A DNA stretch of 38,117 nt, from assembly GCA_024637275.1 (NCBI GenBank), contig JAGXFS010000129.1, forward strand, positions 1 to 38,117, read 5' to 3'. Source of the DNA: Acidimicrobiia bacterium (GTDB taxonomy: Bacteria > Actinomycetota > Acidimicrobiia > Spongiisociales > JAENVV01). The stretch's first letter is position 1. Every line of letters starts with the position of its first letter. Made by a program: the position numbers and the translations under genes. Shown here one piece after another: positions 6,330 to 37,211 of this stretch. Under the pieces are notes generated by a model that saw nothing but the letters and a program-made list of their open reading frames with translations, searched no databases and was not told the DNA's origin.

Positions 6330-7688
6330 ATGAACGACCACACCAAGATTTTGCTCGACGAAGATGAAATGCCAACCCACTGGTACAACATCGTTCCAGA
6401 TCTCCCCGCTCCACCTCCTCCACCGCTCCACCCCGGTACCCATCAGCCTATCGGCCCCGACGATCTCGCTCCGCTGTTCCCGATGGACCTGATCATGCAG
6501 GAGGTGAGCCAGGAAAGCTACGTCGAGATTCCCGCGGAAGTACGCGATATCTATCGCACCTGGAGACCATCCCCGCTCTATCGCGCCCGACGCCTCGAGG
6601 CAGCACTCGGGACACCGGCCCGGATCTACTACAAGTATGAGGGAGTTAGCCCGGCCGGTTCTCACAAGCCAAACACGGCCGTACCTCAGGCGTATTACAA
6701 CGCCAAGCAAGGCGTGAAGAAGCTCACAACAGAAACCGGGGCCGGCCAATGGGGTTCGGCGCTCTCATACGCCTGCGCCCTCTTTGGAATGGAATGCGAG
6801 GTCTGGCAAGTGCGAGCTTCCTATGACGCCAAGCCCTACCGCCGCAGCCTTATGGAGGTCTGGGGGGCGACCGTCCACCCAAGTCCCTCGAATCTTACAG
6901 CGTCCGGGCGAGCCATCCTGGAGTCCAACCCTGACAGTTCCGGGAGTCTTGGTATCGCCATTTCCGAAGCCGTCGAAGTAGCCGCCGGGGATCCTGATAC
7001 CAAGTACGCCCTCGGAAGTGTGCTCAACCACGTTCTCATGCATCAGACGATCATCGGTGAGGAAGCCCTCCTTCAACTGAAGAAAGCTGGCGAGACTCCC
7101 GACGTCCTGGTCGGGTGCACCGGTGGTGGGTCGAACTTCGGTGGCCTCTCGTTCCCCTTCATTCGCGAGAAGCTCGCCGGAAACATGAATCCAGAGATCC
7201 GGGCGGTGGAACCGGCGGCCTGTCCTTCGCTCACCAAAGGCATCTACGCGTACGACTTCGGCGACACGGCCGGGATGACCCCGCTGGTAAAGATGCACAC
7301 GCTCGGCCACGACTTCGTACCCGATCCGATCCATGCCGGCGGACTTCGCTATCACGGAATGGCCCCGCTCGTTTCGCATCTATACGAACTCGGCATCATG
7401 TCGGCAACGGCCATCCAGCAAACGGAATGCTTTGCGGCGGCCGTCCAGTTCGCCCGAACCGAAGGCATCCTGCCCGCCCCCGAACCGACCCACGCGATCG
7501 CCGAATGCATCCGCGAAGCGAACCGCTGCACCGAAACCGGAGAGGACAAGGTCATCCTCATGGCATTGTGCGGCCATGGGCACTTCGACCTGGCTTCCTA
7601 CGATGCCTACCTGGCCGGGGAGCTAGAGGACTACGAATATCCCGCCGAAAAGGTCGCCGCCGCCCAGGAGAGGATCCCGGTTATCTAA
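6330..7688 (+). CDS. TrpB2-type tryptophan synthase beta-like PLP enzyme
   Basis: [23 protein letters not shown] (PLP lysine), [22 protein letters not shown]; no trpA neighbour. Confidence 0.92.
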
Positions 7689-7698
7689 TCCCGATCCG

Positions 7699-7713
7699 AA
7701 CCCAGGTTGGGTT
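7699..7713 (+). terminator. Short hairpin after the TrpB2-like gene
   Basis: AACCCA-GGT-TGGGTT 6-bp inverted repeat followed by TGTT in the convergent intergenic gap. Confidence 0.45.
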
Positions 7714-7715
7714 TG

Positions 7716-9773
7716 TTATCCGAGGGCGCGGCGTAAGAAGGCGGCCATCTGGCCGCGAGTCACCGGCTGCTTCGGGCAGAAACGCGTGTTCGCCGGTGGG
7801 TTACACCCGAGCGTCACCTTCGCGGCGGCGAGCTTCTCGATCTCCGTCTCGAATTGAGAAGTGTCGTCGTCGGTAAACGGATCATTGGCCTGGGCCGAAT
7901 AGCCAAGCGCTCTCACCAGGAAAGCCGCCATCTGCTCGCGGGTGATCTGGCTGTCCGGACAGAAGCGGGACCCATCGTGGCAGCCTTTGGTGATGCCGGC
8001 GGCCGCCAATTTGTCGATGTCCGCCGCAAAGATGTTGCCCGCGGTGTCCGTGAAGTCCGCGCTAGGAGCCGCGGGCAGATTGAGAGCCCTCGAAAGGAAC
8101 GCGGCCATCTGGCCTCTTGTCACAGTGCTGTCAGGGCAGAAGCGATCATTTTTCGGCGGGTTACAACCAAAGGTTATGTCCGCCGAAAACAGCCATTCGA
8201 TGTCGGCCTGGAATACTGAAGCGTCGTCATCTAAGAACGTCCCCTCATAGTCGAGCGGGTCCCACTCGTCCGGACACTCCCATTTTGGATTCCGGAACCA
8301 CGACGAGGTCGGGGTGGCGTTGCTGCCCATCCAGGCGCCAAACGAGGAGCCGTCTGAGTTGAGCCAGACATCATCGCGGCCGTCTCCATCGAAGTCGGCC
8401 ACGGTTAGCACACCTGACGAGAGGTCGATGGTGCTGGTCACCGTTAGGTCTTGCCCGCTGTTCGTGTAAATGTGAGCTATCGCTCCGGAACCGGATGGCT
8501 CAAACGCATACAGGTCGGGCCGATCATCGAGGTCACGATCGCCAAGCGAGAACTGCCAGCCCGTGGTATCTCCGAACAGCCCGGGAAACTCCTTCAGCTT
8601 GGTGGCGTATCCCGAAGCGCCATCCCAAATTTCCACGTCAGTAGCCGTGCCCTGATTGATGATTACGTAGAGGTCGGGGGCGTTGTCCCAGTTGTAGTCA
8701 CCAACTACATAGGTTTGGTCAGCCCGAACCGGAACCGATGTTGCGATCTCAATGGTGTCGCCGGATTCGCCGCGCTGCGAAAGCAGCTCGATCTGCACGG
8801 TAGCGCCCGACTCGTCGACTACCCCGACCTCGGCTCGCCTGAACCCGGCAAAATCCCCGACAATAACCTCGTGAGTTTCGATCGAAGCGTTGGCGATCGC
8901 CCCCGAAACGCCCGAGCATTCGGCGTAGTCGGACCGGGTGGAGACGTACTGCACTACGACATTTCCGTTCTTGTCGAACGCTCGGACCGGATCAGGGGCG
9001 CCGTCACCACTTACATCACCGATCAGGTGGACGCCCGGCTTCCCACCAAAGAAGGTGCTTTCGTCAAACACCTTGTTCGTGAAGTTGGTACCCGTCGTCG
9101 TCACCGGGTACGACGGGGCGGGGTCGCCGTAGCCTGGCGTAAAAGCCGGACCCTGCCAGGAAAAGTGCATGGGATCCTTGAAGATCTTCCAGTCGCCACC
9201 CCAGCAGAAGCCCGCGTCGCGCCATGCCTGCACGAACCACGTTGGCATGTTTGTAGTGAACTTGTCGCCCGGTTCAAACGGCCCTGCCTGATACGGGTTC
9301 TTCGAGGCATTGATATCGAGCGAGATTCCGAAGGTATGTCGAGAAATGCCATACGAACCGCTGACGGTCCTGGCCGCATACCCATACGTATCGGAGCCGA
9401 CCGCGTAGTAATTGCCTTTGGCTTGCTCGGCAGCCAGGTTGGCGGTCACTTGCTGGAAAGCGGGCAGCGCACGTTCGTGCACACTGATGGACACATTTCC
9501 GCCACTCATCGGGACCGTCCATCTGACTAGATCGCTGCGTACCGCACTTACGGTTCGTCCAAACATGTCCCCGTAGGGTCCCCGAATCGCTTCGCCGTTC
9601 GATAGGAATCCGATCTTCGTGGCTAGCGGAGTGGCGGTCTGGAGGCCTGAGCATCCATCGGATTCATTGGCATTCGGCCACGTTTCGCCAACCGCTAGAA
9701 CCGGGTCGGCGACGGTGCCGATGAAGATCGACGCGAGGATGGACAGCGCGAGCAAGCTGGCGGACAGTTTCAC
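7716..9773 (-). CDS. Secreted M15 (VanY-like) D-Ala-D-Ala carboxypeptidase with FG-GAP-like repeats and three SLH domains
   Basis: Signal peptide; SRHTFGISLDINA and KDPMHFSWQGP (M15 metal/catalytic motifs); repeated GDxxxDxxPD segments; three repeats of (D)IxxLxxAxIxxGC...FCPDxxVTRGQMAAFLxRAL. Confidence 0.87.
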   Translation of the reverse strand: MKLSASLLALSILASIFIGTVADPVLAVGETWPNANESDGCSGLQTATPLATKIGFLSNGEAIRGPYGDMFGRTVSAVRSDLVRWTVPMSGGNVSISVHERALPAFQQVTANLAAEQAKGNYYAVGSDTYGYAARTVSGSYGISRHTFGISLDINASKNPYQAGPFEPGDKFTTNMPTWFVQAWRDAGFCWGGDWKIFKDPMHFSWQGPAFTPGYGDPAPSYPVTTTGTNFTNKVFDESTFFGGKPGVHLIGDVSGDGAPDPVRAFDKNGNVVVQYVSTRSDYAECSGVSGAIANASIETHEVIVGDFAGFRRAEVGVVDESGATVQIELLSQRGESGDTIEIATSVPVRADQTYVVGDYNWDNAPDLYVIINQGTATDVEIWDGASGYATKLKEFPGLFGDTTGWQFSLGDRDLDDRPDLYAFEPSGSGAIAHIYTNSGQDLTVTSTIDLSSGVLTVADFDGDGRDDVWLNSDGSSFGAWMGSNATPTSSWFRNPKWECPDEWDPLDYEGTFLDDDASVFQADIEWLFSADITFGCNPPKNDRFCPDSTVTRGQMAAFLSRALNLPAAPSADFTDTAGNIFAADIDKLAAAGITKGCHDGSRFCPDSQITREQMAAFLVRALGYSAQANDPFTDDDTSQFETEIEKLAAAKVTLGCNPPANTRFCPKQPVTRGQMAAFLRRALG

Positions 9774-21955: not shown

Positions 21956-23104
21956 CTATGCGAGAAAATCGACCAGCACGTCTGCGTAGAGCTCCGGCTC
22001 CAGCAGGAATGAGTCGTGACCCTTCTCGGACGAAACGATAACTCGGCGGGCGGCCACGCCCGCCTCACGCAACGCATCGAGCATGACCGCCTGATCTTCC
22101 GGGTAGTAACAAACGTCGGAGTCAATAGTGAAAAGCAGATAACGGTGGGGTCGGGATCGTTTGAGCAAGGTCGCCATATTGGATGCGCCTGCTTCTTCGA
22201 GCAGGTCGAAATGCTGCCAGGCAGTCATCAGCCGAATGTACGTATTGGCGTCAAATCGTTCCAGGAACTTCTGTCCCTGGTGCCACATGTACGACTCCAG
22301 CGGCGAACGAATCTGATATCCGGCCGGGCCGGTTCCCTCGTTGACCTCGCCCCGAGCGCGAAACCTCATCGCTTCAAGAGATACAAATGTTTTATGGCCG
22401 ATCATTCTCGCCAGAGCCAGGCCCTGATCTGGTTTCGGTCGTCCGTAGTAGTCGCCGCCGTTAAAGTTCGGATCGTTCAAGATGGCGTTGGTTTGTTCAA
22501 AGTTGTAGAGAAACTGCAAAGACGAAGTGAACAGTCCGGATGCCACCGGAACAACACGTTCCACCCGGTCGGGGTATCGGGTCGCAAGGCTCATGCACAT
22601 CATGCCGCCGACCGACGGCCCGATCACCGTGTGGAGCTTGTCGATCCCCAAGTGGTCGAGCACCAGCATCTGGACGTCAACGATGTCAGAGAACGTAACC
22701 TCGGGAAACCCACCACCGTAGGGCAATCCCGTCGCGGGATTCAGCGAGGTTGGGCCGGTTGAGCCGTAACACCCTCCGAGGTAGTTGACGCAGATGACCA
22801 TAAACCGGTCGGTGTCGATCGTGCGTCCCGGACCCATCCAGCCAGGCCACCAACCCACCTGGCATTCGTCGCTCCACAGATCAACTCCGGGGACAGACGG
22901 GTTGATGCCGGACGGGTTCTGCGACCCTGTCAGGGCGTGAAAGAGGAGTATGACGTTTGATCGATCAGCGTTCGGCTTCCCGTACGTTTGGTACGCCTGC
23001 CGAACGGCAGGGAGTGTCTCGCCATTCTGCAATTTGTACGGCAGGAGCTCGGGCGGGAGGTCGTAGAACTCAGTCGAGCTAGGGAGCGCATCGGGATCGA
23101 TCAT
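21956..23104 (-). CDS. metX: Homoserine O-acetyltransferase
   Basis: VILLFHALTGSQN, NYLGGCYGSTGPTSLNP, GPSVGGMMCMSLATRYPDRV, C-terminal EKGHDSFL. Confidence 0.93.
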   Translation of the reverse strand: MIDPDALPSSTEFYDLPPELLPYKLQNGETLPAVRQAYQTYGKPNADRSNVILLFHALTGSQNPSGINPSVPGVDLWSDECQVGWWPGWMGPGRTIDTDRFMVICVNYLGGCYGSTGPTSLNPATGLPYGGGFPEVTFSDIVDVQMLVLDHLGIDKLHTVIGPSVGGMMCMSLATRYPDRVERVVPVASGLFTSSLQFLYNFEQTNAILNDPNFNGGDYYGRPKPDQGLALARMIGHKTFVSLEAMRFRARGEVNEGTGPAGYQIRSPLESYMWHQGQKFLERFDANTYIRLMTAWQHFDLLEEAGASNMATLLKRSRPHRYLLFTIDSDVCYYPEDQAVMLDALREAGVAARRVIVSSEKGHDSFLLEPELYADVLVDFLA

Positions 23105-23158: not shown

Positions 23159-24623
<1,465 letters not shown>

Positions 24624-24636
24624 TCGCTAACCCCTT

Positions 24637-24715
24637 CTCATCGATCAGGCATTGGCACCAGCCGAACTGGTTGCCGCGGTTTCAAAGGGCCTGTCCCTCC
24701 ACCGCTCTTGATAAG
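24637..24715 (-). ncRNA. SAM-I (S-box) riboswitch
   Basis: Minus strand CTTATCAAGAGCGGTGGAGGGACAGGCCCTTTGAAACCGCGGCAACC...GGTGCCAATGCCTGATCGATGAG matches the S-box core; P1 CTTATC/GATGAG pairs. Confidence 0.93.
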
Positions 24716-24724
24716 TACCTGCGA

Positions 24725-24826: not shown

Positions 24827-25243
24827 ATGAACATCTGTATCAATTGCCGCCATCCATGGGAACCTTGGTCTCCCGATGAGCGCTGCCCCGATTGTGGCGC
24901 GGCACAAGATGCGGGCGGCACGGCGCCAGCAGACCCGTTCGCCGCCGCGAGCTCTCAATCAGATGAAGACGGAAGTTCTAGCTCCGACGAGACACCAAAC
25001 GCCGCCCAGGGACCGCCGCCGCTCCCCCCGCCTGCTGGAGCTTCCTGGGATCTCCGACGCCTGACCCTGCCATTGGTCAGCCCCACTCCGAACTGGAGGC
25101 CCGCACCGACGGTCGGACCCCCAGGTCGGGCATGTCTACCGGGGGGACCACGACATCCGCTGTATCGCCTACGAACCGGGAAGCGACCTCACCGAATCGA
25201 TTCGAAACGCCGCCTATTAGCCGCCGGTGATCGGCGAAGCTGA
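24827..25243 (+). CDS. Small zinc-ribbon protein, C-terminal half possibly frameshifted
   Basis: [24 protein letters not shown] (two CxxC); after about 25119 another frame ([32 protein letters not shown], stop 25219) looks more protein-like. Confidence 0.5.
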
Positions 25244-26221
25244 ATCGCTGGCTACCCGAAGATGACAGGCGACCTGGTGGTTCCCGCCAAGCGGTTCAAG
25301 CCGCGGGTCCTTGACGTCACATAGGCCCCCCTGCGCAATCGGGCACCGGGGGTGAAAATGGCAGCCCGGCGGTGGGTCGAGGGGCGACGGGATTTCGCCC
25401 GCCAGAATCTGCCGATCGCGCGGCCGGTCAGGATCAGGGATGGGAATCGCCGAAAGTAGCGCCTCCGTGTACGGGTGCAGCGGGTTCCGGTACAACGTAT
25501 CTCGGTCCGTCAATTCAACTATTCGCCCGAGGTACATGACGGCCACCCGATTGGAAATGTGTTCGACAACGGCCAGGTTGTGTGCCACGAAGAGCAGTGT
25601 GAGACCAAGTTCGCCCTGGATCTCTTTCAAAAGATTCAGCACCTGGGCTTGCACAGACACGTCCAGAGCCGAGACCGGCTCGTCAGCAATCACCAGATCT
25701 GGTTTCAGAATGAGAGCTCGGGCAATGCCGATGCGCTGACGTTGTCCCCCGGAGAACTCGTGCGGATATCTCCCGGTGTGTCTGGGCTGCAAACCGACCA
25801 GTTCCAGCATCTCTTTGACCCGCTCGTGTCGCTCGTCCTTGTCAGACACTCCGTGGATTCTGAGACCTTCCGAGATCGACTCTCCAACCTGCGTCCGAGG
25901 GTCCAGAGACGAATAAGGATCTTGGAACACGATCTGGACACGCTTGCGGAACGGCTTGAGTGCATTGCCCCGCAGATGAGACATGTCTTGACCATCAAAC
26001 TGGATCGTTCCAGACGTCGGTTCGAGCAGCCTGACCAGGATCCTGGCCAGTGTTGTCTTGCCGCATCCCGACTCGCCCACGAGGCCGAGGGTTTCTCCAC
26101 GTCGAATGTCGAGGTCGACCCCGGCTACGGCATTCACGGTTGCGACCTGCCGATGCAGCAAGCCTCCTCTCACCGGAAACTGCTTCACCAGGTCACGGAT
26201 CTCAACCAGGTTTTCAGCCAT
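25217..26221 (-). CDS. Oligopeptide/dipeptide ABC transporter ATP-binding protein (DppF/OppF-like)
   Basis: [26 protein letters not shown]-terminal [10 protein letters not shown]. Confidence 0.93.
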
Positions 26222-27209
26222 CTTCAGGTTCCTCCTGGTACAGCCAGCAGCGCACGTTGTGACCCGGCGAAACTTCTAGGAGTTGCGGCTTGACCTTCGT
26301 GCAGATCTCGAGACCGTTTTGGACGCGCGCCACGCACCGTGACGCAAATCGACAACCGCTCGGCAAATCAATAAGCGATGGCACCACCCCGGGGATGGTC
26401 TCGAGACGCTCTTTCAATCTACCAAGCACCGGAATAGAACCCACCAAACCCTGGGTGTAAGGATGCAAGGGTTCGCTGAAGATGCGCCGTACGTTGGTCT
26501 GTTCCACAACCTCGCCTGCGTACATCACCGCGACCTCGTGCGCCATTTCAGCAACGACCCCGAGATCGTGCGTGATGAGAACCACCGCGGTGTTCGATGA
26601 CTTCTGGAGGTCGCGCATGAGGTCAAGAATCTGCGCCTGGATGGTGACATCGAGAGCGGTCGTTGGTTCGTCTGCGATCAAGAGTTCGGGCTCACAGGCC
26701 AACGCCATGGCGATCATGATCCGTTGGGCCATGCCTCCGGATAGCTCATGGGGATACGCAGCCGCCCGCCGCTTCGGGTCGGGAATGCCGACTTTGGCGA
26801 GCATTTCGACGACCTTCTCCTCCTCGACGTCCTTGGCCCAGTCACGATGAAGCTCAAAGACTTCCCTGATCTGAGCTCCGGCCCGATAGACCGGATTGAG
26901 GGCGGATCCTGGTTGTTGGAAGATCATCGAGATGTGATCACCGCGCAGCTCTCGAAGCTGTTTCCGTTTCATGGCTGCCAGATTTTCACCGTTGAACAGA
27001 ACCTCGCCGGCGACAATCTCTCCCGGGTGCGAAATCAAACCGATGATCGAAAGAGCAGTTACAGACTTACCGCAGCCAGATTCGCCGACCACGCCCAGAA
27101 CCTCACCGCGGTTTACTCGTAGGTCGACCCCATCGACTGCTTTTACAACACCATCTCTCGTATCGAAGTGAGTCTTGAGACCACGAATCTCTAACAACGG
27201 CTCGGTCAT
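26214..27209 (-). CDS. Oligopeptide/dipeptide ABC transporter ATP-binding protein (DppD/OppD-like)
   Basis: [51 protein letters not shown]; start moved to ATG 27209. Confidence 0.93.
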
Positions 27210-28168
27210 CGGTTCAAAGTTGGGTCGAGAGCATCGCGCAGGCCGTCGCCCATCAAGTTGAACCCAAGCACGGTGAGCATGATGGCCAGCCCGGGAAAGA
27301 ATACGAGGTGCGGAGCGGTGAACACCTGGTTGCGTTCCGATGCCAACATCGAGCCCCACTCGGCCGTCGGTGGCTGCGCACCCAGGCCAAGAAAGGACAA
27401 ACCGGCTGCTTCGAGGATGGCGGTCGCGACGCCAAGCGTCGCCAGAACTACCAGAGGGGTAAGAGCATTGGGGAGCACCCGACGGAGCAAGATGTGCATG
27501 GGGGACGCTCCAAGAGCCCGAGATGCCGAGACGTAGTCAGCCTCTTTGAGGCCAAGGACCTGGGCGCGGGTAACCCGTGCATATTGGGGAATCGTAACGA
27601 TGGCGATGGCAATGAGGGCATTACGGAGGCCCGGGCCGAGGACCGCAACGATGGCGATGGCGAGCAGGAGTGAAGGGAACCCGAGGATCACATCCATAAA
27701 ACGCATGGCGATGTTGTCGAACCAACCACCCAAATAACCGGCGACAGCACCGATCGAAGCGCCAATCACCAGCGCCAAGGTGACGGTGAAGAACCCGAGC
27801 GTCAAACTGACCCTCGAGCCGTAAATCACCCTTGAGAATTCGTCACGGACATTGCCGTCCAGACCGAGAATGTGCTGCGGGCTGGCCTCATCGCACCCGA
27901 GCAGGTGAATACACGGAGGTCCATAGCGGCTGACGTCTTCTTTCCCGATAAGAATCTCAGTCGGTCCATAGGGAGCGAGGAGCGGGGCGAAGATCGCCAC
28001 GAGAATGAGGAACACGACAATCCCGAGTCCAATCATCCCTGACTTTCTTCCGCGGAAGCGGCGCAGGGCCAGGCGCCACTGCGTGAGGGGCTTCTCGAAG
28101 AGACGCGTCGAATCAGCGGCTTCCGCCTGTAACTGATCAAGGGCTTCCTTGCGGCTCATCATCTTCAT
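27206..28168 (-). CDS. ABC transporter permease (DppC-like)
   Basis: Multi-TM; EAA-loop-like DYVSASRALGASPMHILLRRVLPNALTPL. Confidence 0.92.
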   Translation of the reverse strand: MKMMSRKEALDQLQAEAADSTRLFEKPLTQWRLALRRFRGRKSGMIGLGIVVFLILVAIFAPLLAPYGPTEILIGKEDVSRYGPPCIHLLGCDEASPQHILGLDGNVRDEFSRVIYGSRVSLTLGFFTVTLALVIGASIGAVAGYLGGWFDNIAMRFMDVILGFPSLLLAIAIVAVLGPGLRNALIAIAIVTIPQYARVTRAQVLGLKEADYVSASRALGASPMHILLRRVLPNALTPLVVLATLGVATAILEAAGLSFLGLGAQPPTAEWGSMLASERNQVFTAPHLVFFPGLAIMLTVLGFNLMGDGLRDALDPTLNR

Positions 28169-29244
28169 TCGAGGCGAATCCTCGGATCCAGGTAGGCGTA
28201 TGACAAGTCAACCAACAGGTTCACGAGCACATATCCCGCGGCGACCACGACGGTGAACCCCTGGACAATCGCGTAGTCGCGACCCTGGATCGCGTCGAAT
28301 AGCGCCCGGCCAACCCCGGCCAGATTGAACACCGTCTCGGTGAGAACCGCCCCTCCCAACAAGGCACCCAGCTGGAGTCCGACGATCGTGACTACTGGAA
28401 GAAGGGCATTTCGGAACGCATGTTTTCCGACTACCGCTGCGTCGCCAACCCCCTTGGCCCGGGCCGTACGAATGTAATCCTTGCCCATCACCTCGAGCAA
28501 CGAACTGCGGGTGATTCGGGCAATGATCGACAACGGGATCGTCGCAAGGGCCACGGCAGGCAGAATCATGTGCTTGACCGCATCCCAGAAGACTGTCCAC
28601 TGCCCGGTGATGAGATTGTTGAACAGATAGTGATTCGCGATGTATTCGTGGGTCTTGGCCGTGAGGCTGCCAGGTTCTAGATCCCAGCCCCAAACCTCAA
28701 AATAGGGAGTCGAAAACACGCCGGCACTGAGCCGCCCCGACGGTGGGAGCGCGAACGGAGTATCGCGCAGGACGAGCGCGAATATATACGCCAACATCAG
28801 ACCAAGCCAAAAGACCGGCATCGAAACGCCCACGTTGGCAAGCGCCATGGTGGCGGTATCCGCGACAGAGTTATGACGCCGGGCGGCCAGAACTCCCAAA
28901 GGAACCCCGACCAAAACCGCGAGAGCCAGTCCGATCATTGCCAGCTCAGTTGTGAGAGGTAGACGTTCGATCAACATCTGGTTGACGGGCCTTGAGAATC
29001 TGATCGACTCGCCGAGATTGAACGTCGCCACGTTCTTCATATAGAGGCCCAACTGGACGTAGACCGGTTCGTTGAGGCCATTCGCCTCATTGAAACGCTC
29101 ACAGGCCGCCACAGTGGCACGCTCCCCCAACAAGGAGGTGCAGGGATCGCCCGGGATCGCCCGTATGAGCAGAAACACCACGAGCACGATCCCGAAGAGA
29201 ACCGGGATAGCGAGCAAGATGCGTCGAATGATGTAGTTGATCAT
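28165..29244 (-). CDS. ABC transporter permease (DppB-like)
   Basis: MINYIIRRILLAIPVLFGIVLVVF; DYIRTARAKGVGDAAVVGKHAFRNALLPV; start moved to ATG 29244. Confidence 0.92.
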   Translation of the reverse strand: MINYIIRRILLAIPVLFGIVLVVFLLIRAIPGDPCTSLLGERATVAACERFNEANGLNEPVYVQLGLYMKNVATFNLGESIRFSRPVNQMLIERLPLTTELAMIGLALAVLVGVPLGVLAARRHNSVADTATMALANVGVSMPVFWLGLMLAYIFALVLRDTPFALPPSGRLSAGVFSTPYFEVWGWDLEPGSLTAKTHEYIANHYLFNNLITGQWTVFWDAVKHMILPAVALATIPLSIIARITRSSLLEVMGKDYIRTARAKGVGDAAVVGKHAFRNALLPVVTIVGLQLGALLGGAVLTETVFNLAGVGRALFDAIQGRDYAIVQGFTVVVAAGYVLVNLLVDLSYAYLDPRIRLE

Positions 29245-29260
29245 CGGAGCGTCAGGATAG

Positions 29261-29293
29261 AGCAAGGGGGAGGCCGGTGGCCTCCCCCTTGCT
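29261..29293 (-). other. Intra-operon hairpin between solute-binding-protein gene and permease genes
   Basis: Perfect 15-bp stem AGCAAGGGGGAGGCC-GGT-GGCCTCCCCCTTGCT; no T-run. Confidence 0.75.
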
Positions 29294-29316: not shown

Positions 29317-31020
29317 TTACTCCTCGACGTTGATGAGGCCCCAGAGGTAGTCGTAGTACTCGAACACACCGCTGTTGCCCGAATGCAACGGCGAAGCTGC
29401 ATCCAAACCGGCGGTGAATGTCGCCACGACATCGTTGGCATCGAAGGCCGACCCATCGTGGAACACAACACCGGAACGCAAATTACACGTCCAACTGGTC
29501 AGTTCGTCGTTGGCGACACACTCGGTGGCCAGTTGCGGCTGCACCGAACCATCCGGGGTGTACGAATACAGCCCCTCAATGATCTGGCCACAGGCCCGCA
29601 GCGACTCCCCATCTGTCTCATCGGCGCAGTACAACGAAATAGGCTCGTTGCCCTGCATGAACACCAGGGTGTCCTTGCCGTTGTTCCAGAGGCTGAACTG
29701 TACGTCGCCCCATGGCGGAGCGTAGGCACCCTCAACCGACGCCTGCGCTGCATAGCTGGCAGCCGAATGCGAGATCGGCACCATTGGCACCAGTTCCTTG
29801 ATCGCATTGTTGGCGTCCGCATAGAGAGGCGCAGCCTCGGCGGCACTTGCCAGCTTGGACGCTGCTTCCAACGGTTCGTAGATCTCCGGATAGCCGTCGC
29901 CGAACTGAGCGTTCGAGGCTGCGAAGTGGAAATCGAGGAAGTTGGTCACGTGCGGATAGTCACCCGTCCAACCAAGCAAATGGATGCCGTCGTAGCCACC
30001 AGCCGATGACGTCTGAATGAACTCACCAGACTCGACTACAACAACCTCAGCATCAATATTCAGGTTGGTCTTCAGCTGATCCTGAATGTCGGCAGCCACA
30101 TCTCCCGGCGTTGGGAGATACCCACGAGTTACATCGCGGTAGTAGATCTTCGTCGAGAAGCCGTCTGCCAGGCCAGCCTCCGCAAGGAGTGCCTTGGCGG
30201 CGTCGACGTCGAAGTCGTACCACGAGTCACCTTCACAACCGTTCTCAACCGAGCAAGGCGTGAAGTGGGAAGCGGTCTCTGAACCCGCTGGATAGAAGGT
30301 ATCGATAATCCGCTGACGGTCGATGCCCAGCGCGACAGCCTTGCGAACATTTGCATCGTCCCACGGAGCGAACGTGTTCGTGAACCCCATGTAGAAGATG
30401 TTTGGTTCTGGCTTGTCGAGCAGCACGAGATTCGGATCGGCTTCGATTGTCGCCAGGTCCTCGGTGCCCGGGAACGTGATTCCGTCAACCTGGAGCGACT
30501 GAAGCTCCAACAACCGACCAGCACTCTCCGTCGCCCAACGCAAGACAGCCGTCTGCGAAGGAGCTAGATCGCCGTAGTAGGCGTCGTTACGCGAGAAGAT
30601 TACCGAGTCGCCTCGCACCCATTCCTGGAGTGCGTACGGTCCGGTACCGATCGGGTTGTCAAGGGGCGCACCGCCGGTTGCTTCGAGATGCTCTGATGGC
30701 TGAATGCCGAATACACCGAAGGCAAGTTTCGCCAAGAAGGCCGGGTCGGGCGAACACAGCTCAAACTGCACCGTCAGTTCGTCGACTGCGGTGATCGTGT
30801 TAACTTTACCGCCATAGTCACAGCCACCCGCGTCGAGGACCGCACCCATAAAATCAGGTGATGGCTCGGCTGGTTGGGTTGTGTCCGGGCTCGCGGCGAC
30901 CGTCGTGGTCGTTTCTTCGCCACTTGCAGCTGCGGTGGTGTCCGTTGTAGAGCCTCCGCAGGCCGCAGCTATTAGCGCGAGGGCCAACAGCAACGAAAAT
31001 AGTGATAGGTGTCTCTTCAT
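29317..31020 (-). CDS. ABC transporter substrate-binding lipoprotein, SBP_bac_5 family, apparently circularly permuted
   Basis: Lipobox LALIAAACGG; SBP_bac_5 motifs in permuted order (see finding); start moved to ATG 31020. Confidence 0.88.
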   Translation of the reverse strand: MKRHLSLFSLLLALALIAAACGGSTTDTTAAASGEETTTTVAASPDTTQPAEPSPDFMGAVLDAGGCDYGGKVNTITAVDELTVQFELCSPDPAFLAKLAFGVFGIQPSEHLEATGGAPLDNPIGTGPYALQEWVRGDSVIFSRNDAYYGDLAPSQTAVLRWATESAGRLLELQSLQVDGITFPGTEDLATIEADPNLVLLDKPEPNIFYMGFTNTFAPWDDANVRKAVALGIDRQRIIDTFYPAGSETASHFTPCSVENGCEGDSWYDFDVDAAKALLAEAGLADGFSTKIYYRDVTRGYLPTPGDVAADIQDQLKTNLNIDAEVVVVESGEFIQTSSAGGYDGIHLLGWTGDYPHVTNFLDFHFAASNAQFGDGYPEIYEPLEAASKLASAAEAAPLYADANNAIKELVPMVPISHSAASYAAQASVEGAYAPPWGDVQFSLWNNGKDTLVFMQGNEPISLYCADETDGESLRACGQIIEGLYSYTPDGSVQPQLATECVANDELTSWTCNLRSGVVFHDGSAFDANDVVATFTAGLDAASPLHSGNSGVFEYYDYLWGLINVEE

Positions 31021-31236
31021 TTGTTCCTCCATATGAACGCTCGCTAAAGGAGCGTGCCAACAAACTAGTCGTTTAACCGGCCAGTGCCCATCCGAATCGT
31101 CTGGCCACGGGAACGGATTCACCCAGGACACAAGCCGTCCATGCTGATCGAAAACGCCGCATTCCGATGGGGAACGAAGCGATGGAGCGTCCCTACCCAG
31201 ACGCCAGTTCACGCCTCTTCGGCGACCAGCGGCCGA

Positions 31237-32034
31237 TCACGTCGAACTGAGGAACTCCGTCAGATATTTGGTGACCTGATCCGGAGCTTCGGCCAATATC
31301 GAGTGCCCGACATTCGGGAGGACCACAACCGTGGACCCGGCAACGGTGGATGCCACCTGCTGACCCGACGCTGGCGGGGTCATCTTGTCGTCACTGCCGA
31401 GGAGGAGTAGCGCAGGGACGCTCACTTTGCCGGCGGCGTCGAGGATCGAGCCGCGATTCATGCAAGCCAGGAACCCGGCATACAACACGCCCGGAGCGGA
31501 CCGTTCCACCACCCGCTTCGACCCGCCCACCATCCATGACCCTGGTTGCCGGTGACCTCCCCGGTGGCCCTGACTTGAGTGCGACCAGCCCACCATGAGA
31601 TCGATCGCGTGCTGCTCGTCTGCTTCAGCCGCAGCCAGCATCTGGGGATGAACCGGCATCTCGACCGAGACACCGACCAAAACGAGTTTGTCGACGAGGT
31701 CCGGGTGATCCGCGGCGCACTGGATGGCAACGAGTGAACCCATCGAGTGACCGACCAATGTGGCTGAGGTAGCCCCAACCGCCCGAATCACGTCGGCCAC
31801 CCAGTCGGCCATCTCCTCAACGGTGGCCAAGGGTGGGCCCTCTGACCCGCCATGGCCGGGAAAGTCAAGGGCCAGGACTGAGAAACCGTGATGAGCGAGA
31901 TAGCGAGTTTGAAGAACCCAAATCGTGCGATCCTGACCGGCACCGTGCAACAACACGAGGAGCGGCTTGGCAGGTTCAATCGGACGACCTCCGGTGGCTG
32001 CAAACACCCGCTTGTCGCCGACCGTGATGTCCAT
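31237..32034 (-). CDS. Alpha/beta hydrolase
   Basis: LLVLLHGAGQDRTIW, LVGHSMGSLVAIQCA, PNVGHSILAEAPDQV; start moved to ATG 32034. Confidence 0.92.
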   Translation of the reverse strand: MDITVGDKRVFAATGGRPIEPAKPLLVLLHGAGQDRTIWVLQTRYLAHHGFSVLALDFPGHGGSEGPPLATVEEMADWVADVIRAVGATSATLVGHSMGSLVAIQCAADHPDLVDKLVLVGVSVEMPVHPQMLAAAEADEQHAIDLMVGWSHSSQGHRGGHRQPGSWMVGGSKRVVERSAPGVLYAGFLACMNRGSILDAAGKVSVPALLLLGSDDKMTPPASGQQVASTVAGSTVVVLPNVGHSILAEAPDQVTKYLTEFLSST

Positions 32035-32038
32035 GCGA

Positions 32039-33331
32039 TTACTTCTTCGACGCCCGTAGCGCGCGCCTGAGGTCACCAATCAGATCCTCGATCGACTCCA
32101 TGCCAACCGAGAGGCGGATCAGGTCTTCACTGATGCCGGCGGCTTCCAGGTCCTTGGCAGACATTTGCTGGTGGGTCGTCGATCCCGGGTGAATCACCAG
32201 GGATTTGGCGTCTCCCACATTGGCCAGATGGGAAAAGACGCTGACGGCTTCGATGAACTTGCGCCCTGCCTCACGACCACCCTTGATCCCGAACGAGAAG
32301 ATCGCGCCTGGCCCCTTGGGGAGCATCTGTTGGGCGCGAGCGTGGTCAGGATGGGACTCCAGGGTCGGATACGAAACCCATTCGACCTCGGGAGCTGCGT
32401 CGAGGAATTCAGCGACAGCCACGGCATTGGCCACGTGCCGTTCCATCCGGATGGGAAGGGTTTCGAGTCCTAGCAACATGTAGAAGGCGTTCTGAGGACT
32501 CATTGAAGCTCCGAAATCACGCAGTCCCTCCGCTCGGGCACGTGACATGAAAGCCGCGGGCCCATACTCTTCGGAAAAATCAATGCCGTGATATCCCTCA
32601 TATGGCTCGGTGAGGGTGGGGAATTTGCCAGACTTCTCCCAGTCGAAGGTTCCTCCGTCCACAATAACTCCCCCGATCGCCACACCGTGCCCGCCAATAA
32701 ATTTGGTAGCGGAGTTCATAACAATGTCGGCTCCCCATTCGATCGGCCGACAGAGATAGGGCGAGGCGAACGTGTTATCGACCATCAGCGGCAGGCCTTC
32801 GGCGTGGGCAAGATCAGCTACCGCCTGCATGTCCATGATTTCCAGGCCCGGATTGCCGAGCGTTTCACCATAAACCAGCCGGGTGTCGTCGGTGATGGCG
32901 TCGGCGAACTCATCCGTGTTGCGAGGGTTGACGAAGGTGGTCGTAATCCCGAAGCGCGGCAAAGTGAGGTTGAACATGTTGTGCGAGCCGCCATAGATCG
33001 AACCCGATGCCACGATGTGCCCGCCTTGCCCCATGAGGGTGGCAACGGCGAGAAACAGTGCGGCCTGACCGGAAGCTGTGGCCACCGCCCCGACCCCACC
33101 TTCAAGGGCAGCCATGCGCTCTTCGAATGCCGCCACGGTCGGGTTCGAGATACGCGAATAGATATGGCCAGGGGTCTCAAGGTTGAATAGGGACGCAGCA
33201 TGGTCAACGGAGTCAAACAAGTACGACGTGGTCATGTAGATCGGCTGTGCCCGAGCCCCGTACGTTTCATCGGGCCGCTGGCCAGCATGCAGCGCCAACG
33301 TCTCGAACCCAAGGCCCTCCGGTGTGATCAT
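32039..33331 (-). CDS. Second O-acetylhomoserine sulfhydrylase-like (MetY-family) PLP enzyme
   Basis: [51 protein letters not shown]; clear paralog of 23159-24472. Confidence 0.92.
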
Positions 33332-35756: not shown

Positions 35757-37211
35757 ATGCCGATTCGCATTCCGTTTCCGTCGCTGATCGTCCTCGTCGG
35801 GCCGTCTGGAAGTGGCAAAACCACGTGGGCAGAAGCCAACTTCAAAGCTGGCCAGGTCGTTTCATCAGACGCTTTGCGGGCTGCCGTAGGTACTGGACAA
35901 CACGATCAGAAGGCATCCGCCGACGCATTCGCCGTGCTCGAATCAATCGTGGATATGCGGCTCGCGCGGGAACTCGTCACGGTCATTGACACGCTCGGTC
36001 TCAATGCCGACGACCGCCTGCGGTGGCGTCAGAAGGCTACGGACGCCGGTGTGCCGGCAATCGCCATCGCCTTCGACACCGATCAAAAAACATGCAAGGA
36101 CCGTAACAAACGGCGTAGTCGGAGCATCCCCCCGAAGGTGCTCGACAGCCAGATCACCCGGTACGCCGAAACCCGACCCGCCCTTGAGGACGAAGGATTC
36201 GCGGCTGTCTATACGGCCGATGACGTGACCCCCGTCGCTTTGCCAAGCTGGTCTGCTGACCAGGTCAGCCCGACCCGGCGCCTCCGGTTTGGCCTCCAGG
36301 TGTCGAACTACGAATGGGGAGACGTCTCGACACCAGACACATTGGCCGCCATCGCCCGGCGAGCGGAAGCGGCCGGGTTTGAGAGCTTGTGGCTGATGGA
36401 CCATTTCCGGCAGATCCCCCAGGTTGGTCCTGCCTGGAACGACATGCTGGAGGCCTACACGACGTTGGCATGGCTGGCAGGCGTGACCGACACGATCAAG
36501 CTCGGCGCGCTCGTAACCGGCCTGACCTATCGCAACGTGGGTTTGCTTGCCAAGATCATCTCGACGCTCGACGTGCTCTCCGATGGCCGGGCGATATGTG
36601 GCATCGGCGCCGGCTGGTTCAAACAGGAACACGAGGCGTTCGGGTATGTGTACCCGCCCGATAGGGAACGTCTGGATCTGCTCGAAGACGCTCTCCAAGC
36701 ACTACCCATTCTTTGGGGAGCAGGCGCCAAGTCGTTTGAGGGCAAGGTCGTCAGCATCCCCGAGGCCCTGGCATATCCACGGCCCGTTCAAGAACACATA
36801 CCCATCCTGGTCGGCGGAAGCGGCGAAAAGCGAACCCTCAAACTGGTTGCTCAGTACGCCGACGCCTGCAACCTGATGGGCGGCCCAGATGACGTCCGAC
36901 ATAAGCTCGCTGTCCTTGACGCTCACTGCGAAGCCGTCGGGCGGGACCGCACTGAGATCGAAGTGACCCACCTCTCCCCCACCTTCGTGTACAGCACCCG
37001 ACCCGAACTCGAAGCCGAGGCGAAGGCTATGGGGATGGACGTCGACGTACTGCTCGGGCCCTTCTCTGGCGGGACCGTTACCGATAACGTCACCCGCTTC
37101 ACAGGTTTGTCCGAGGCAGGCGTTGACCTTGCGATCGTTGCCATCGCCAATCTTCACCGTCCGGGGTCCCTCGAAACATTCGGAGAAGTCATCGAGGCGT
37201 TCTCGATCTAG
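35757..37211 (+). CDS. Fusion: N-terminal P-loop (polynucleotide-kinase-like) domain plus C-terminal F420-dependent LLM-class oxidoreductase
   Basis: LIVLVGPSGSGKTTWAE Walker A, VIDTLGL; then RLRFGLQVSNYEWGDVSTPDTLAAIARRAEAAGFESLWLMDHF, AICGIGAGWFKQEHEAFG, PILVGGSGEKRTLKLVA. Confidence 0.88.
   Translation: MPIRIPFPSLIVLVGPSGSGKTTWAEANFKAGQVVSSDALRAAVGTGQHDQKASADAFAVLESIVDMRLARELVTVIDTLGLNADDRLRWRQKATDAGVPAIAIAFDTDQKTCKDRNKRRSRSIPPKVLDSQITRYAETRPALEDEGFAAVYTADDVTPVALPSWSADQVSPTRRLRFGLQVSNYEWGDVSTPDTLAAIARRAEAAGFESLWLMDHFRQIPQVGPAWNDMLEAYTTLAWLAGVTDTIKLGALVTGLTYRNVGLLAKIISTLDVLSDGRAICGIGAGWFKQEHEAFGYVYPPDRERLDLLEDALQALPILWGAGAKSFEGKVVSIPEALAYPRPVQEHIPILVGGSGEKRTLKLVAQYADACNLMGGPDDVRHKLAVLDAHCEAVGRDRTEIEVTHLSPTFVYSTRPELEAEAKAMGMDVDVLLGPFSGGTVTDNVTRFTGLSEAGVDLAIVAIANLHRPGSLETFGEVIEAFSI

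Follow-up and report, generated by a model that had tools for sequence, protein, structure and literature searches.

A circularly permuted DppA/OppA-type solute-binding lipoprotein in an Acidimicrobiia importer operon, and comparable permutations among its relatives

The window analysed here is the whole stretch of 38,117 nucleotides of contig JAGXFS010000129.1 (Acidimicrobiia bacterium, assembly GCA_024637275.1). Its reverse strand carries a complete importer gene set, comprising a solute-binding protein (SBP), two permeases and two ATPases in the order SBP-B-C-D-F; the first-pass annotation of this DNA had likewise called the transporter operon complete. The features of the locus are as follows, where (a), (b) and (c) denote the segments of an ordinary DppA/OppA-like chain in their usual order:

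30958..31020 (-), signal peptide, aa 1-20, and lipobox Cys21 (...ALIAAAC), read from the sequence
30862..30957 (-), flexible Thr/Ser/Glu/Pro-rich linker of ~33 residues, aa 22-53, ahead of segment (b); read from the sequence, with pLDDT <50 at mature residues 1-29
29317..31020 (-), the permuted SBP_bac_5 (DppA-like) lipoprotein gene as a whole; intact ORF, 567 aa plus stop
29686..30861 (-), segments (b) and (c), aa 54-445, which correspond to DppA ~120-507 and include the Asp that aligns with DppA Asp408 / OppA Asp419
29671..29700 (-), new junction, DVQFSLW / NNGKDTLVF, at which the native C-terminus meets the native N-terminus; pLDDT 98 block, dN/dS 0.027
29320..29685 (-), segment (a), aa 446-567, the counterpart of the N-terminal ~119 residues of DppA, here at the C-terminus
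29261..29293 (-), strong hairpin between the genes for the SBP and permease B; z -5.3, with -34.4 kcal/mol over the whole stretch
28165..29265 (-), DppB/OppB-like permease; ORF, with the same order in related loci
27206..28168 (-), DppC/OppC-like permease
26214..27209 (-), DppD/OppD-like ATPase
25217..26221 (-), DppF/OppF-like ATPase

The segments of the window SBP run in the order b-c-a, against a-b-c normally, with the front fifth of the chain placed at the tail end. After the linker, the 'VNTITAVDELTVQFEL' region leads to 'VPMVPISH...PPWGDVQFSLW', which passes directly into 'NNGKDTLVFMQGNEPISLY...VVFHDGSAFDANDVV...FEYYDYLWGLINVEE*'. The Pfam family PF00496 matches in two swapped pieces (aa 56-371 match its positions 61-366, and the C-terminal end matches 2-53), and the score of 228 bits lies far above the gathering score of 32.4; the family is likewise matched by 60 of the 60 aligned members. 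In a phmmer search against PDB sequences, residues 73-442 correspond to E. coli DppA 124-501 and residues 492-558 to DppA 45-117. The DppA chain is covered once in rotated form, each segment being present in a single copy. The native termini meet with hardly any linker, and the new ends lie at one formerly internal position, the DppA 119/124 loop, as is expected of a circular permutant.

The swapped PF00496 pieces and the mapping onto DppA bear out the permuted order proposed in the first-pass annotation, and the near absence of a linker agrees with its reading of (c) as fused directly to (a). The intact frame, the lipobox, the strand and the coordinates had also been read correctly. The statement that the mature protein begins with (b) holds for the order of the segments, but the signal peptide, Cys21 and the linker precede (b). 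The same annotation had considered that the true start might lie upstream and include a further copy of (a); in the ORF listing, the frame of ~70 codons ahead of the ATG (31021-31236) bears no resemblance to (a), and the sole copy found is the C-terminal one.

Both halves of the window SBP are homologous to E. coli DppA and to the SBP_bac_5 cluster C (DppA, OppA, NikA, GsiB, and SapA), with which it also has in common its best Foldseek matches, the peptide-amine-binding Asp and the BCDF operon. The export signal with a lipobox (aa 1-21) is that of the Gram-positive members of this cluster. Unlike DppA, it has the b-c-a order, extra conserved cysteines and an anchored N-terminus that probably enters domain II. 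The AF2 model built from 60 locus-derived sequences reached pLDDT 91.2 and pTM 0.87; the structure prediction that had been proposed as a check gives high confidence for the whole mature chain except the linker, where the only disorder occurs, and the block with the new junction (mature residues 421-430) has pLDDT 98. The best Foldseek matches of the model are DppA, GbpA, and related cluster C proteins (E ~1e-28 to 1e-25); they align sequentially over ~386 columns, for the most part at 2-3 A, and this length is roughly that of b-c, the portion accessible to a linear aligner.

The same segment order occurs far beyond this locus. When segments (a) and (b-c) were searched separately on ORFs, 108 distinct permuted ORFs were recovered (98 in the group of the window protein, hereafter P1, nine in P2, and one in P3) against 29 in normal order. 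The 98 distinct P1 sequences come from Acidimicrobiia, a second actinobacterial class, and Chloroflexota. One genome-contig scan gave 80 loci that are 53-92% identical to the window SBP; 47 of them carry Chloroflexota titles, 25 Actinomycetota, and a few the names of other phyla, the last of which may be mislabelled MAGs. The 59 relatives searched gave 20 strong matches, nearly all full-span. In an even draw of the phylum, full-length P1 matches at >=55% identity were found in six of 397 genomes: the window’s own, three more from its order, and a further two from one family outside the class. More diverged P1 members within the class are represented by two loci, L205 and L206, which were considered as new permuted groups and rejected as such, the trees placing both as deep P1 members. 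The L205 protein (6932-8881, -) has a signal sequence without a lipobox.

The isolate Bellilinea caldifistulae GOMI-1 possesses one P1 protein together with a second, deep-branching permuted paralogue, which is represented in Bellilinea genomes by L213 and L214; no permease or ATPase genes were found near these two in the fetched flanks. In P1 proteins, a group of eight non-lipobox cysteines was noted, with mature C47, C69, C236, C242, C445, C481, and C492 invariant in 60 permuted sequences and C457 nearly so. This pattern suggests up to four disulfides, with C47 near the new N-terminus.

Since the permuted order is kept in 98 distinct P1 homologues, chance is excluded as its cause, and since these include a protein of the isolate GOMI-1, an assembly artefact is excluded as well. 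The window does come from a draft assembly of 184 contigs, in which a chimera, a frameshift artefact or a decaying pseudogene might be looked for, but the P1 sequences stem from independent assemblies, their frames are intact, and dN/dS is 0.02-0.04, which makes such an origin of the gene practically negligible in probability. In a comparison of the window gene with a 93% identical relative of the same genus, dN/dS was 0.020 for b-c, 0.039 for (a), and 0.027 for the junction (aa 436-460), these NG86 values from our own script being approximate because synonymous sites of b-c are near saturation. Both segments and the junction between them are under purifying selection. The window protein is a real, old and conserved circular permutation. 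What does not stand is the view of it as a single curiosity, which the survey of its spread replaces with a large clade and at least two further comparable permutations in its relatives.

These further cases, P2 and P3, were reached through full-span matches at 25-30% identity to a window-type permuted query. P2 comprises nine OppA-like permuted proteins of Acidimicrobiia (for example, L118), and P3 is one sequence from one plasmid record of Subdoligranulum (L117). Rotated queries revealed that P2 has relatives of 45-51% identity within the same bacterial order (L163, L164, L168, L171, L173, and L174), which resemble it in sequence and, at the L163 and L168 loci examined, in gene order, but have the segments arranged a-b-c. 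These relatives show the P2 permutation to be comparatively recent. The OppA-like relatives of P3 with 45-47% identity (L126 and L127) also have the normal order. An AF2 model of a P2 member, made from just nine sequences, reached only pLDDT 45 and pTM 0.43, too low to be informative.

P1, P2, and P3 all have their new ends in one and the same loop, which connects the end of the (a)-helix to the 'VDD.T..V.L' strand, and their native termini follow each other almost without a linker. In the normal-order relatives, the length of this loop varies from a few residues to ~30. The same loop was opened three times; the claim does not extend to “only this loop”, given the ASCERTAINMENT limit that the query which led to P2 and P3 was itself cut at this site and would have missed permutations elsewhere. 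The gene order SBP-B-C-D-F recurs in P1, in P2 and in the normal-order relatives of P2, and P3 has B-C-D-F-SBP. One more candidate, from Phyllobacterium (H67), appeared permuted in tblastn and was rejected, as it actually represents two neighbouring genes of a tandem array.

For the phylogeny, permuted sequences were rotated to the canonical order and aligned with normal ones under LG+C20+F+G4. Each of the four trees (65, 43, 54, and 48 rows) needs at least three order changes, forced by well-supported branches: P1 groups with DppA-like proteins, P2 lies inside the actinobacterial OppA-like proteins, and P3 with OppA-like proteins of Firmicutes/Fusobacteria. The AU test rejects the grouping P1+P2+P3 (p = 0.0002) and each of the pairs P1+P2, P2+P3, and P1+P3 (p below 1e-40 for each), with the qualification that these tests share the assumptions of the model and that the groups were defined once the first tree was known. 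A common origin of all permuted proteins is rejected by this test, and the phylogenies show that the P1 permutation arose independently of P2 and P3. The identical loop and direction in all three groups could be taken as the trace of a single permuted ancestor followed by several reversions. However, monophyly is rejected for every pair and for the three together, P2 and P3 are each nested among normal-order proteins (45-51% and 45-47% identical), and an exact normal order is harder to regain than to lose, which leaves a single ancestor very improbable. Because normal order surrounds each permuted group, three gains are likelier than reversions.

Each of the three permutations presumably began with a tandem duplication of the SBP gene and an in-frame fusion, after which segment (a) of the first copy and the signal peptide with (b) and (c) of the second copy would have been lost. 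The permuted lineages yielded no fused or tandem intermediate. Tandem SBP arrays occur elsewhere, for example in Phyllobacterium sp. T1293 (L203, NZ_CP088275.1), where at least four tandem oligopeptide-binding-protein genes precede oppB, and arrays of this kind could be the raw material for a permuted gene.

We consider it highly probable that the window SBP is the permuted solute-capturing lipoprotein of a DppABCDF-type ABC importer, with a conserved segment order that arose independently of P2 and P3 and with fold and function presumably retained. The N-terminal ~119 residues of the ordinary chain now stand behind the C-terminus, a short turn links the old termini, and the new ends lie in the variable loop that separates the segment-(a) helix from the 'VDD.TV.F.L' strand. 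The three-domain cluster C fold, the ligand cleft, and the docking to permeases B/C would be unchanged. All 25 permuted rows checked have Asp in the column of DppA 408 / OppA 419, and in OppA proteins this residue binds the amino group of the peptide (PMC5736914). Because this Asp is kept, a peptide or peptide-like ligand is predicted; a peptide or a small peptide-like compound would be bound and handed to the permease as by DppA. The window SBP most likely acts as a regular binding lipoprotein of the peptide type (DppA/OppA). The alternative that the permuted protein has left the service of the adjacent importer and become a sensor or a ligand-storage protein would suit the paralogues L213/L214, which lack neighbouring permease genes, but P1, P2, and P3 lie mostly within SBP-B-C-D-F or B-C-D-F-SBP sets, and we regard this alternative as improbable.

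With the role of an importer lipoprotein retained, the main consequence of the permutation would concern the tether. When the domain limits of BbOppA4 (PMC5736914) are applied here, the native termini belong to domain I and the breakpoint to domain II, and it is for this reason that the lipid tether would enter domain II instead of domain I. Perhaps the permutation was selected for this very shift, which might alter the presentation of the SBP to the permease or reduce strain near the cleft. Such selection would agree with the domain positions of the termini and with the lipobox Cys followed by a low-complexity linker in nine of nine P2 proteins, in P3, and in the window protein, and the same idea was put forward by the authors who described an independently permuted SBP, TpMglB-2 (PMC4990184). 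However, normal-order SBPs of Gram-positive bacteria are anchored too, the permuted L205 protein lacks a lipobox, and the loop is so variable in normal-order relatives, from a few residues to ~30, that neutral tolerance may suffice; we hold selection on the tether to be possible and rather unlikely.

TpMglB-2 (Tp0684) of Treponema pallidum and its relatives, “cluster Bc”, is a natural circular permutation of a tethered SBP (PMC4990184) and the nearest precedent; its N-terminal strands have been transferred to the C-terminus without loss of the fold. It differs from the window SBP in being a sugar-binding protein of cluster B, with another fold class, cut position and ligand, and no sequence relation between the two was found in this analysis. 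An assignment of the window SBP to “cluster Bc” was rejected, as Pfam and Foldseek give SBP_bac_5 / DppA. We found no natural permutant of the DppA/OppA cluster in the open-access literature (subscription papers and most preprints lay outside the search), and CIRPIN (PMC12667903) makes no mention of SBPs. Natural permutation in SBPs was already known from TpMglB-2 of cluster B, and the permuted form in the DppA/OppA cluster appears to be new within the open-access literature.

SBP_bac_5 proteins are among the commonest bacterial transport proteins. We give an even chance to the suggestion that cluster C SBPs have a permutation hot spot, at which the N-terminal ~115-120 residues moved to the C-terminus at least three times through one loop, with the re-siting of the tether being functional or the move being nearly free. 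If so, together with TpMglB-2, N-to-C permutation would be a recurrent route in tethered SBPs. The three independent permutations, with the ~50% identical normal-order relatives of P2, provide matched natural pairs for testing the effects of chain order and tether position on folding, binding, and delivery. Moreover, linear profile and structure searches cut permuted SBPs in two, by which annotation can be misled.

Within the operon, the hairpin at 29261..29293 likely sets the ratio of SBP to permease expression. Directly upstream of the operon lie an alpha/beta hydrolase gene (31237-32079, -) and a second MetY-like gene (32039-33331, -), which are kept in a genome of the same genus (90% and 97% identity, respectively) and were not found at the other loci examined. 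These neighbours might hint at a sulfur-containing substrate of the importer. On the other side of the operon, a SAM riboswitch (24635-24717, -; RF00162, 74 bits) precedes MetY-like (23159-24544) and MetX-like (21956-23104) genes, named by eye. At 35757-37211 (+), a 484-aa ORF appears, also by eye, to fuse a P-loop kinase-like domain to an F420-dependent (luciferase-like) oxidoreductase.
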